Shown: piece by piece, positions 1,907-3,988 of the stretch | How the letters are laid out: every line of letters starts with the position of its first letter | Position numbering within the stretch: the first letter of the stretch is position 1 | Source of the DNA: Desulfobulbus sp. | Lineage (GTDB): Bacteria; Desulfobacterota; Desulfobulbia; Desulfobulbales; Desulfobulbaceae | DNA length: 10,527 nt | Assembly (NCBI GenBank): GCA_030602145.1 | Contig: JAUWAH010000040.1 | Span: 1 to 10,527, forward strand | Direction: 5' to 3' | Program-made: the position numbers and the translations under genes | The notes under the pieces: generated by a model | Databases searched by the model: none | Seen by the model: the letters and a program-made list of their open reading frames with translations, nothing else | Told to the model about the DNA's origin: nothing

Positions 1907-3490
1907 CTAGGTGATCAGAGGCGATATGGTTGGAGCGACGCCTTTGCAACAGTAGGGGTCTCGATCGGTGAAGACGTCGAGGCCATAGCCGTGGGCCACG
2001 GCGGGGCAGCCCCGGCAGACCGGTCGGAGTTCGCAGCCGAAACAGGCGCTGCAGCCGGTGCGGTAGCGCCGGGCGGCTTCGCCTGCATAGATATTGGTCA
2101 GCGAGTCGATGAAGAGATTGCCGATGGGTGAGGGAAACTTGCGGCAGGCGTGGACCTCGCCATCCGGAAGCACGGAAATGAAATTAAAAGCCGCGCCGCA
2201 GCCGAAACCGGTGCAGCCGCCGATGAGCGGTTGTCCCTGCCTGGCGAGAACCAAATTGAACAGGTTGTCTTTGAGGCTGAGCAGGGGATGGTCGGCTGCC
2301 GCTGCGAGGTAGGTCTCCAGAAAGGCGGTGAACCGTTCGGGTTCCACCGAGGCCAGTTCCGCCCCCTCACCCACCATGGCCAGCCGGTTGAACGTGAACA
2401 GATCGGCGCGGTCGCGGAGCAGCTCGGTAAGCGGCAGCACCTCCTCGCAGTTGGCGCGGGTCAGGGTGAGCATGACCATGGCGTAGAGACCATGGGCTCG
2501 CAGCCGATCGAGGAAGGCCAGAGTGCGATCGAAGTGGCCGGGCCCTCGGATAGAGTCGTTGTGGTCGCGCAAGCCTTCAAGGCTGACCTGGTAAAATTCC
2601 GGCCGCCTGATCGCCAGCATACGCTCGATATACCGATCCTCCATGGGGTTGCCCAGCACGGCAACCAGAAAGCCGCGATCCACCGCCTCCTGATAGATTT
2701 CGTAAAAGTGCGGGTAGAGCATGGGATTGCCGCCGGTGAAGCTCACCTGGGCATGGATGTGGTGCGCCTGGCAGAAGTCGTACAGCTGATCGAGGACACG
2801 GATCGCCTGCGGAAAGGACATCTGCGACCGGGTGCTGCGGTCGTAGCAATGGCGGCAGTGCAGGTCGCAGGCCTGGGTCAGGTGCCACTGGAGGGCAAAG
2901 GTCGCCACCGTCGATTGGTCGGCATCAGCAAATCGGCCCTGTAGAAAGCTCGGGTCGCGCACCAGGGACGAGGGAGGGGTGAGAATGAGTCCTTTGCGGG
3001 CCGCTTCGGCAAGGATGTCATCGATCCGGCCGACGGTCACCCCGGCTTCAGTGGCGGCAGCCCGGCTGGCAATATTCTCCACGACCAGTTTAAGGGCCAG
3101 CAGGTCATGGCTGTCCGGAGTGGTGACCACCACAGGTGCCCTGAACGCTGGTTGATAGAGCAACACCAGGGTCTTGCCGCTCTCCGGCCTGGTGTCCGGG
3201 TCCTGGAGCAGGGCGGGCAAGCCGGTCCAGTCGACTTCGACGATCCGAACCGTTGGGTTGATGGTCCGGGTTGCCACCATGGCTGGGAAAGTGGTGCCGG
3301 CGTGCGCCAGTTGATGGCGAGCGTATTCCAGGGTGGCGAGATCGGGCAAGTAGGGATGGCTGCCGCACAAATCGGGATGGGTTGCCAGGTAGAGGGGGAG
3401 TTCGGCCGGCGGGATGGCATCAGGCAATGCGCCGGCCAGATGACTGCTCATCGGGAAAATCGCGGCCAGCGATGGATTCGAAGCGGTCAT
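1907..3490 (-). CDS. sbtM: Radical SAM/SPASM selenopeptide maturase (SbtM family)
   Basis: Predicted RiPP maturase acting on the SbtA peptide encoded just upstream. With start ATG 3490 it has 527 residues. Roughly residues 125-175 (DLLALKLVVENIASRAAATEAG...DILAEAARKGLIL) look like a PqqD-type winged-helix recognition element; that is inference. The radical SAM cluster motif CDLHCRHC gives Cys208, Cys212 and Cys215, followed by the GGNP stretch SFTGGNPMLYP near 250. The C-terminus is a SPASM-like auxiliary Fe-S region: C426, C431, C449, then CSACFGCELRPVCRGC with C480, C483, C486, C492, C495, and C514/C515. Family knowledge: maturases of this type pair with selenocysteine-containing peptides (Haft and Basu 2011). 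Start choice: a TTG at 3547 and ATGs at 3490 and 3451 are in frame, none with a clear Shine-Dalgarno; 3490 is favoured by the overlapping mini-ORF stop. The chemistry, reportedly thio/selenooxazole formation, is not shown by the sequence. Confidence 0.88.
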   Translation of the reverse strand: MTASNPSLAAIFPMSSHLAGALPDAIPPAELPLYLATHPDLCGSHPYLPDLATLEYARHQLAHAGTTFPAMVATRTINPTVRIVEVDWTGLPALLQDPDTRPESGKTLVLLYQPAFRAPVVVTTPDSHDLLALKLVVENIASRAAATEAGVTVGRIDDILAEAARKGLILTPPSSLVRDPSFLQGRFADADQSTVATFALQWHLTQACDLHCRHCYDRSTRSQMSFPQAIRVLDQLYDFCQAHHIHAQVSFTGGNPMLYPHFYEIYQEAVDRGFLVAVLGNPMEDRYIERMLAIRRPEFYQVSLEGLRDHNDSIRGPGHFDRTLAFLDRLRAHGLYAMVMLTLTRANCEEVLPLTELLRDRADLFTFNRLAMVGEGAELASVEPERFTAFLETYLAAAADHPLLSLKDNLFNLVLARQGQPLIGGCTGFGCGAAFNFISVLPDGEVHACRKFPSPIGNLFIDSLTNIYAGEAARRYRTGCSACFGCELRPVCRGCPAVAHGYGLDVFTDRDPYCCKGVAPTISPLIT

Positions 3491-3551: not shown

Positions 3552-3568
3552 TCGTGCCAACTGCACGA
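3552..3568 (-). promoter_or_regulatory. Candidate SECIS hairpin for the third TGA
   Basis: A perfect 6-bp stem TCGTGC/GCACGA closes the loop AGTTG, beginning 17 bases after the TGA at 3587-3585 and lying beyond the TAA at 3578-3576. The inner GTGC/GCAC pairs equal those of the second hairpin. It supports reading the third TGA as Sec. It could instead be an intercistronic hairpin that affects sbtM translation. Loop sequence and distance are less canonical than in the first two. Confidence 0.5.
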
Positions 3569-3575
3569 CTATTGG

Positions 3576-3878
3576 TTAGCTGCTTCAGCCACTTTTTGCG
3601 GGTTTCTTGGGTGGTACCTGCTCGGGCTTGGGCGCATCCTTGCACTTACCGGTGGCAGGATCCTTTTCCTTGCATTCTTCGGTGCTCACGGCACCGCCTT
3701 TGTTTGCCCCTCAGCCGCTGCCTGCGGGCTTCTGGACTTCACTGGCGCTCCCGGCGCCAGGCTTGGCCCCTCAGCCGCTGCCGGCGGCATGTGCTCCGGG
3801 CACACTGACACCGCCAGCACTGATCAGGCCAGCTACACCCAATCCGGCGAGCAGCTTCTTCAGATCCTTGCTGTTCAT
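3576..3878 (-). CDS. sbtA: SbtA-family selenocysteine-containing RiPP precursor
   Basis: Read with TGA as selenocysteine, this frame gives 100 residues from ATG 3878 to TAA 3576, with Sec at 36, 56 and 98. All three share the context Ser-Gly-Sec: AGSGUGA, AGSGUGA and KSGUSS. A conventional reading stops after 35 residues. The start has a strong AGGAGG five bases upstream. The leader MNSKDLKKLLAGLGVAGLIS is Lys-rich then hydrophobic and ends in PGAHA-AGSG, resembling a Sec signal peptide with an AxA cleavage site. The core is rich in Gly, Ser, Pro and Lys and has Cys69 and Cys79 (EECKEKDPATGKCK). Candidate SECIS hairpins follow each TGA. The maturase gene lies downstream in the same direction. 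Three TGAs at equivalent motif positions in an otherwise intact frame argue against a pseudogene. Known of the family: a predicted Sec-peptide substrate of SbtM; bioactivity unknown to me. Whether the third TGA is Sec or the true stop (97 residues) is open. Confidence 0.85.
3680..3696 (-). promoter_or_regulatory. Candidate SECIS hairpin for the second Sec codon
   Basis: After the TGA at 3713-3711 and 14 further bases, a perfect 6-bp stem CGGTGC/GCACCG closes the loop CGTGA; the loop starts 21 bases after the TGA. Compared with the first hairpin, the inner stem changes GGCGC/GCGCC to GGTGC/GCACC, a C-G to U-A compensatory swap. The loop keeps the form C-G-x-G-A. Confidence 0.72.
3706..3782 (-). 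repeat. Two 17-base direct repeats spanning the Sec codons
   Basis: Identical 17-mers at 3782-3766 and 3722-3706 encode the GSGUG core of the first two motifs, spaced exactly 60 bases (20 codons) apart. The third site (AGTGGCTGA) shares only the SGU codons. The pattern suggests internal duplication of a core unit, or strong constraint on the UGA context. Confidence 0.8.
3742..3760 (-). promoter_or_regulatory. Candidate SECIS hairpin for the first Sec codon
   Basis: Downstream of the TGA at 3773-3771, after a 10-base spacer, the transcript forms a perfect 7-bp stem CTGGCGC/GCGCCAG closing a 5-base loop CGGGA. Bacterial SECIS elements lie inside the coding region just after UGA, have a short apical stem about 11 bases away and need a G early in the loop for SelB binding; this one fits. 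The loop starts 18 bases after the TGA. Confidence 0.75.
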
Positions 3879-3883
3879 GTTGG

Positions 3884-3889
3884 CCTCCT
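3884..3889 (-). promoter_or_regulatory. Ribosome binding site of sbtA
   Basis: AGGAGG lies five bases before the ATG at 3878. It is a near-perfect anti-SD match and fixes the start of a gene that cannot be found by ordinary open-frame length. Confidence 0.85.
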
Positions 3890-3908: not shown

Positions 3909-3947
3909 ATGGGGTCGAATAGGTGCAGCCTATCTCTTTGCCCCCAT
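3909..3947 (-). promoter_or_regulatory. Structured 5' leader of sbtA
   Basis: Between promoter and start, the transcript can pair ATGGGG (3947-3942) with CCCCAT (3914-3909). This encloses an inner ATAGG/CCTAT stem (3933-3929 with 3923-3919) carrying a 5-base loop. The nested stem could control sbtA expression or stabilise the mRNA. It does not match a riboswitch class I know. Confidence 0.45.
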
Positions 3948-3959
3948 CCATTGAAAGAA

Positions 3960-3988
3960 AGCATACAAAAGGGAAATCGGGTTGTCAA
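3960..3988 (-). promoter_or_regulatory. Sigma70-type promoter of sbtA(-sbtM)
   Basis: A perfect -35 TTGACA (3988-3983), a 17-base spacer and a -10 TATGCT (3965-3960, 4 of 6) predict transcription from about 3953, giving a leader of about 75 bases. A T9 tract at 4012-4004 and AT-rich bases just upstream resemble an UP element. The T tract might also mark the end of ettA transcription, but no convincing hairpin precedes it. The rest of the gap, 4013-4177, shows nothing recognisable. Confidence 0.7.

Follow-up and report, generated by a model that had tools for sequence, protein, structure and literature searches.

The window analysed here, a stretch of 10,527 nucleotides forming a 10.5-kb contig in a 2.8-Mb draft genome (72% complete) of Desulfobulbus sp., almost certainly contains, judging from the gene sequences, a selenocysteine (Sec)-coding precursor gene, sbtA, together with the gene of its maturase, sbtM. 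The pair is a plain new instance of the known SbtA/SbtM family of thio(seleno)oxazole RiPPs (also called 'selenobiotic' or 'selenobacteriocin'), with which it shares the leader, the Ser-Gly-Sec cores and the adjacent SbtM, both models scoring over their cut-offs; it differs only in detail, in that the window copy has three Sec and two extra Cys. To our knowledge, few natural products carry gene-encoded selenium through UGA. On balance, the explanation favoured for the locus as a whole is a two-gene selenopeptide RiPP cassette whose product would be exported and act as a soft-metal or redox buffer. The present analysis adds an apparently RNA-imposed peptide motif, leaders with signal-peptide and lipobox features, and Cys paralogues, parts of which may already be in print.

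The sbtA precursor and its maturase

The two genes and the elements of the precursor are located as follows.

3576..3878, minus strand: sbtA, a 100-codon precursor gene with three Sec (TGA) codons and a TAA stop at 3576-3578 (translation with TGA as U; TIGR04081, 47.7 bits; TGAs aligned in two same-genus relatives)
3884..3889, minus strand: Shine-Dalgarno AGGAGG of sbtA, 5 nt before the ATG (from the sequence)
3786..3878, minus strand: leader, residues 1-31, signal-peptide-like, with a K-rich n-region, a hydrophobic core and AHA before the first core (TIGR04081 over residues 1-27; hand rules on 77 relatives)
3771..3773, minus strand: Sec codon 1, U36, context SGUG (translation; TGA aligned in L015 and L020)
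3711..3713, minus strand: Sec codon 2, U56, context SGUG (translation; TGA aligned in L015 and L020)
3585..3587, minus strand: Sec codon 3, U98, context SGUS (translation; TGA aligned in L015 and L020)
1907..3490, minus strand: sbtM, radical SAM/SPASM maturase, 527 aa if the start is the ATG at 3490 (TIGR04082, 663.4 bits; PF04055 and PF13186)

Read on the minus strand from 3878 to 3576 with TGA as Sec, sbtA is one open frame of 100 residues in which Ser-Gly precedes each of U36, U56 and U98, and the three Ser-Gly-TGA codons in a single frame ending at TAA that an earlier, sequence-only reading had described, naming no strand, are confirmed there; the plus-strand reading of 3576-3878 is not sbtA. 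The peptide is MNSKDLKKLLAGLGVAGLISAGGVSVPGAHA-AGSGUGAKPGAGSASEVQKPAGSGUGANKGGAVSTEECKEKDPATGKCKDAPKPEQVPPKKPAKSGUSS, followed by TAA, the hyphen marking the proposed cleavage site. Residues 1-27 match TIGR04081, the SbtA leader model, with E 8.8e-13 and 47.7 bits against a cut-off of 30.5, so the leader that had been claimed holds, as does the Shine-Dalgarno sequence. The description of the gene as 'unannotatable' does not, since NCBIfam has curated models for both genes (TIGR04081 and TIGR04082). The spacer that separates Sec 2 from Sec 3 in the window SbtA contains two Cys, C69 and C79, that are absent from the same-genus L015 and L020.

sbtM is the next gene after sbtA on the same strand, and the radical SAM neighbour of the sequence-only reading is SbtM itself, scoring 663.4 bits against TIGR04082, an equivalog model for the thio(seleno)oxazole radical SAM maturase with a cut-off of 350. 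Its next-best NCBIfam match is the ACGX-system radical SAM/SPASM model (TIGR04340), at 201 bits and below that family's cut-off of 400; ACGX-system precursors carry Cys repeats. The CxxxCxxC motif (C208, C212 and C215) is invariant in 55 close homologues chosen among 120 matches listed of 3177, as are C426, C431, C449, C483, C486, C492, C495 and C514. For the SbtM of a relative, excerpts of a review citing Lewis 2021 report that Cys and SeCys peptides lose four hydrogens and that the Cys product is, by NMR, a thiooxazole; by analogy, a selenooxazole product is very probable here.

Selenocysteine insertion would need selA, selB, selC and selD, which the sequence-only reading had proposed to look for, and all four are present in the draft genome, with selA at 608 bits, selB at 358, selD at 364 and the tRNA-Sec gene (selC), whose anticodon is TCA, at 57.1 bits (gathering score 47). 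The host selD (G000:C353:996-1937) has one in-frame TGA itself and so is probably a selenoprotein gene.

Coding through the TGA codons

Were the TGAs stops, the frame would end after codon 35, leaving a 35-residue peptide followed by a decayed or non-coding tail. All three window TGAs align with TGA in the same-genus L015 and L020, and the differences beyond them can be counted by codon position. Between TGA1 and TGA2 these are 2,0,7 for window-L015, 3,0,6 for window-L020 and 1,0,8 for L015-L020, a close pair; between TGA2 and TGA3 they are 6,8,22, 6,15,19 and 0,7,7 respectively. The last of these counts has no third-position excess and indicates that the TGA2-TGA3 segment evolves fast and is loosely conserved, the ratios of amino-acid-changing to silent codons in that segment being 15:12, 19:10 and 10:3 in the same three pairs. 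The codon-position bias beyond TGA1 and TGA2 in the window-relative pairs nevertheless argues against termination, as do the sel genes and the Ser-Gly-Sec-type cores that most of the 77 homologues retain.

Distribution and diversity of the family

The survey started from 33 and 48 matches to TIGR04081, two of them shared, giving 79 distinct matches of which 77 were used; L130, at a contig end and lacking a core, and L133, a longer, unrelated-looking protein, were left out. Four of the 77 score below the TIGR04081 cut-off (G248, the second copies in G384 and G269, and G367:C93), six frames that continued beyond a plausible stop TGA were cut back to it manually (L007, L015, L136, both L132 and one L123), and L016 and L021 are truncated by contig ends.

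By the leader model, SbtA occurs in 32 of 73 genomes of the host's family and in 39 of 395 genomes drawn from the phylum, 37 of the latter over the cut-off. SbtM exceeds its cut-off in 29 of the 73 family genomes, such that 28 have both genes, four SbtA only (G003, G009, G014 and G071, with a partial SbtM match at a contig end in G003 and G014), one SbtM only (G068) and 40 neither. selA is found in 28 of the 32 family genomes with SbtA and in 31 of the 41 without it; this is no clear separation, so selA alone does not predict SbtA in the family, and the split is counted against the favoured explanation.

The 77 precursors hold 190 Sec, with none, one, two, three, four and five Sec in 3, 7, 25, 36, 5 and 1 precursors respectively, and the residues preceding Sec are SG at 134 sites, SS at 24 and GS at 14. 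Three Sec, which the sequence-only reading had taken for an exceptional density, are thus common (36/77), and the window SbtA ranks 21 of 76 for Sec density. The homologues also run on past the first TGA with Ser-Gly-Sec cores, where that reading would have been undone had they ended there. Its suggestion that homologues might have Cys in place of TGA is borne out at core positions in some of them and fails in the same-genus L015 and L020, which keep TGA: exchange is seen as SGCGG four times in L134_36878, as SGC in L053, L045, L054 and L127, and in the Cys-rich L060 and L131.

Several Sec per chain on Lys/Glu/Ala-rich low-complexity scaffolds, along with the two extra Cys of the window copy, would also suit an envelope selenium or redox protein, with Sec unmodified or partly so and serving as a selenium store, a peroxide scavenger or a selenenyl-sulfide switch. 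Such a protein is unlikely given that 28 of the 32 SbtA-positive family genomes also have an SbtM scoring over its cut-off and that a related SbtM oxidises Cys and Sec peptides in vitro, as excerpted from the review.

Some members of the family depart from the common layout. L134 (G269:C13:36878-36931, minus strand) is an all-Cys SbtA-like paralogue with SGCGG four times and no Sec; its leader scores under the TIGR04081 cut-off and it lies beside a four-Sec sbtA, and such a natural all-Cys counterpart of a Sec copy would be convenient for selenium-free expression. L010, L011, L017, L041, L055 and L136 end in AIEGC, a C-terminal Cys replacing the terminal Sec core (the end of L136 was set by hand at a TGA). 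L042 (G263) and L056 (G123) are SbtA-leader genes lacking Sec that have a lipobox-like site and adjoin a Sec-bearing sbtA; they are perhaps companion lipoproteins.

SECIS hairpins and the conserved motif after Sec

A SECIS-like hairpin lies downstream of each of the three window TGAs.

3742..3760, minus strand: SECIS-like hairpin 1, CTGGCGC-CGGGA-GCGCCAG (p 0.027 against the null)
3680..3696, minus strand: SECIS-like hairpin 2, CGGTGC-CGTGA-GCACCG (p 0.020 against the null)
3552..3568, minus strand: SECIS-like hairpin 3, TCGTGC-AGTTG-GCACGA, downstream of the TAA and between sbtA and sbtM (p 0.030 against the null)

A Sec insertion element just downstream of the precursor TGA is already in print, according to excerpts of the review. 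No Rfam family reached its gathering score over the window, and the SECIS elements were therefore shown by comparison, using a table of 148 sites and null models that covers precursors L007-L064 only, 19 precursors read later falling outside it. At 81 of 102 non-terminal TGA sites the loop of the best hairpin starts 20 or 23 nt downstream of the T of the codon, the distance at terminal sites being 19 to 29, and the loops in the family are mostly AGGTA, CGTGA or CGGGA. Against synonymous recoding, 101 internal sites have a mean hairpin score of 16.9 compared with 7.7 for the null, with p<=0.05 at 65; the 36 sites with p >0.05 are set against the favoured explanation. At 46 terminal sites, where the hairpins lie around or beyond the stop codon, the mean score is 18.5 against 5.2 for dinucleotide shuffles and p<=0.05 is reached in 45.

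In the strongest test, sites were chosen by peptide sequence, irrespective of whether the DNA pairs: x-[ATV]-[GV]-[SG]-[ATV] follows Sec at 111 of the 190 sites. The numbers of these sites that form each of five stem pairs are 111, 111, 111, 110 and 111; the sixth and innermost codon-pair position pairs in only 17 of 111 and is read as loop, which weighs against the favoured explanation. The synonymous wobble base of codon 1 follows the first base of codon 5 (G for Ala or Val, A for Thr) in a 56:0:1:54 split over the 111 sites, an association with a Fisher value of 3e-31, or 1e-13 on 52 unique 15-mers, in which relatedness is not fully removed. A wobble base that tracks a residue four codons away makes the A-G/V-S motif look imposed by the RNA and not by the peptide. 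To judge by these sequences, it seems to be the RNA that needs the conserved residues after Sec, and those after internal Sec would accordingly appear not to belong to the product and should not be read as core.

Sec and Cys sites differ in the same respect. Hairpins scoring at least 12.5, a cut-off set after the scores had been seen, occur at 183 of 189 Sec sites (of the 190 in the 77 precursors) as against 2 of 27 core-like Cys sites; for the A-G/V-S motif the counts are 110 of 127 Sec sites and 0 of 24 Cys sites. Three genes (L060, L131 and L134) supply 18 of the 27 Cys sites, a further point counted against the favoured explanation, and lipobox Cys account for five (L061-L063, L118 and L121), the counts without them being 2 of 22 for the hairpin and 0 of 19 for the motif. 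The two Cys sites with a hairpin are in L053, which has SGC where relatives have SGU and still has the hairpin, as expected if Sec gave way to Cys recently, and in L127, beside a Sec. The TGAs as real stops are rejected by the codon-position differences, the stem covariation and this contrast between Sec and Cys sites, and a 35-residue product is accordingly very improbable.

In eight of the 77 precursors (L044, L045, L050, L051, L054, L058, L064 and L124) two UGAs stand 3-6 codons apart, and in L044 and L051 the first of them lacks a hairpin at the usual distance, the nearest hairpin loop being about 35-38 nt away, so that one SECIS may serve two UGAs there. A literature search for paired UGAs with SECIS found no paper.

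Leader and probable export

By hand rules, a hydrophobic 12-mer with GRAVY >=1.6 is present in 77 of 77 leaders and a net positive n-region in 76, the shared hydrophobicity reflecting homology among leaders found by one model and not 77 independent signs. The cleavage sites, by the same rules, are AxA-type without a lipobox in 58 of the 77, lipobox-like in 16 and neither in three. Lipobox-like examples include LIGC (L039), LPGC (L018 and L057), LTGC (L061-L063), VAGC (L119) and LGGC (L125); a looser pattern finds 20, four of which are core Cys (L045, L054, L060 and L131) and are excluded from the strict 16. In 54 precursors the first Sec has an AxA-type site before it, and in 44 of them it is the third to sixth residue after that site. 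From these sequence features, export of the SbtA peptide is probable, and the leader may double as export signal. No statement that SbtA has a signal peptide was found in the SbtA/SbtM literature searched, the primary SbtM papers lying outside that search.

A different fate would follow if SbtA were a secreted selenobacteriocin or signalling RiPP, its cores cut out and passed through a dedicated transporter to act on other cells. SbtA and SbtM do form a precursor-plus-maturase pair, and [AST]GG, which double-glycine leaders contain, is found in 41 of the 77 leaders as a possible double-glycine site, a point counted against the favoured explanation. The name points the same way, a table excerpted from a 2026 review listing the family as 'Selenobacteriocin, SGUG' with 2 Sec. 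Against such a product stand the strongly hydrophobic leaders, 74 of 77 of which have an AxA or lipobox-like site, and the neighbourhood of the genes.

Genomic neighbourhood

Neighbouring genes were clustered from 561 frames of at least 90 aa in 45 stretches (the window, L074-L113 and L114-L117), which are not independent, as several genomes gave two and L114 and L078 come from contigs of equal length (83,742 bases) and are probably the same place. SbtM is the most widely shared neighbour cluster, found in 34 of the 45, and 15 further clusters reach at least four loci. Eleven of the 15 were annotated through 18 proteins, including the window frame at 592-1746, and are housekeeping, ATPase, helix-turn-helix or histidine kinase genes; by their Pfam names they are of RecA, DHFR, RNA-methyltransferase, Tyr-deacylase, M16-peptidase, CinA, tRNA_Me_trans, MiaB-like, ABC-ATPase, helix-turn-helix and histidine-kinase type. 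The recurrent clusters outside these 11 are c11, c13, c14 and c15, and c11 and c14 run antisense over sbtA (L076 and L080) and sbtM (L077 and L087) in the loci checked by coordinates. The recurrent neighbours are rejected as further cassette genes in view of what the annotated ones are.

The 11 annotated recurrent clusters of the 45 stretches include neither an exporter or peptidase of bacteriocin type nor an immunity gene; only frames of at least 90 aa were called, so that small immunity genes would be missed. In addition, sbtA and sbtM are on different long contigs in G045, G046 and G072. Together with the leaders, these findings make a selenobacteriocin or signalling RiPP quite unlikely. 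No metal gene beside the cassette is among the 18 annotated neighbour proteins either, and this is held against the metal-buffer explanation.

Proposed function

In the exported-buffer explanation, the ribosome would insert selenocysteine at the three UGAs of sbtA, every one of them served by a SECIS hairpin of its own, a step that has comparative sequence support. SbtM, in the cytoplasm, would then oxidise each Ser-Gly-Sec core to a selenooxazole, as the excerpted chemistry of its relative suggests. The leader would combine a maturation recognition part with a Sec-type signal peptide, and the modified peptide, of about 69 residues with three selenium rings and two Cys, would be exported after modification and cut by signal peptidase I; in the lipobox relatives it would presumably become membrane-anchored. 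In the envelope it might bind and buffer soft metals, for example Cu(I) or Hg(II), or counter related redox stress, which is the weakest step. The sequence-only reading had called the function unresolved, which no longer holds for the chemistry, partly known from the four-hydrogen loss and the thiooxazole of the excerpted review, and still stands for biology, as a literature search found nothing in print on the biological function of the SbtA/SbtM family.

The suggestion of metal buffering comes from bufferins and captophorins, thiooxazole peptides with Sec-type signal peptides that are known to sequester copper (excerpts of PMC11002830, PMC13188914, PMC12452194, PMC12538549 and PMC12668002, from which the review, bufferin and captophorin facts are taken). 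Bufferins are described there as copper-binding thiooxazole RiPPs in which such signal peptides replace ordinary leaders, a feature regarded as highly unusual among RiPP precursors, and lipoproteins are predicted for about 16% of Buf2. Captophorins have been put forward as a class of thiooxazole peptides associated with copper, and their ~305 nm band is also seen with the SbtM substrate once modified. In these MNIO-made 5-thiooxazole peptides, as is proposed for SbtA, Cys-type residues become thiooxazoles, the precursors have Sec-type signal peptides and several residues per chain are modified, by the excerpted accounts. They differ in that an MNIO with a partner protein acts on Cys, whereas SbtA has Sec and a radical SAM maturase; on the maturase gene alone, the window enzyme is a radical SAM protein and not an MNIO (DUF692). 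The likeness is an analogy in action and not membership. DAG-RiPPs, RiPP-lipoprotein hybrids such as DybA (excerpts of PMC12636315), likewise have a RiPP precursor with a lipobox leader, as some SbtA relatives do, but carry an MNIO-modified C-terminal motif, and the window SbtA has AHA and not a lipobox.

SbtA might thus buffer metals in the manner of bufferins and captophorins, with an unrelated enzyme and with selenium; given export, the analogy leaves metal buffering an even call. A more specific proposal is tentative and somewhat doubtful: SbtA peptides would be poly-selenooxazoles that anaerobic bacteria export, and sometimes anchor to lipid, to buffer metals. They would be a selenium counterpart of captophorins, made by a radical SAM enzyme and not by an MNIO, and each internal SECIS hairpin would be built into the peptide as an A-G/V-S repeat without a function in the product. 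If the exported-metallophore reading is true, thiooxazole peptides arose at least twice, with unrelated enzymes and one job.

Upstream elements of sbtA

Two elements were recognised upstream of sbtA.

3919..3933, minus strand: operator-like palindrome ATAGGCTGCACCTAT, between the promoter and sbtA (sequence pattern in family upstreams)
3960..3988, minus strand: sigma-70-like promoter TTGACA-17-TATGCT (from the sequence)

The pattern ATAG-N7-CTAT ranked first when all half-sites of 4 or 5 bases were scanned with gaps of 0-13; of 72 non-redundant upstreams of sbtA, 10 contain it (shuffle mean 0.0) and seven the variant ATCG-N7-CGAT (shuffle mean 0.1). A genome-wide palindrome search in six genomes gave 20-26 forward matches each against 1-26 in a backwards control and was too noisy to point to a regulator. 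The promoter pattern TTGAC[ACT]-n16-19-TAnn[AT]T is found in 20 of the 72 upstreams (shuffle mean 0.3), the -10 element of the window deviating from it at one base.
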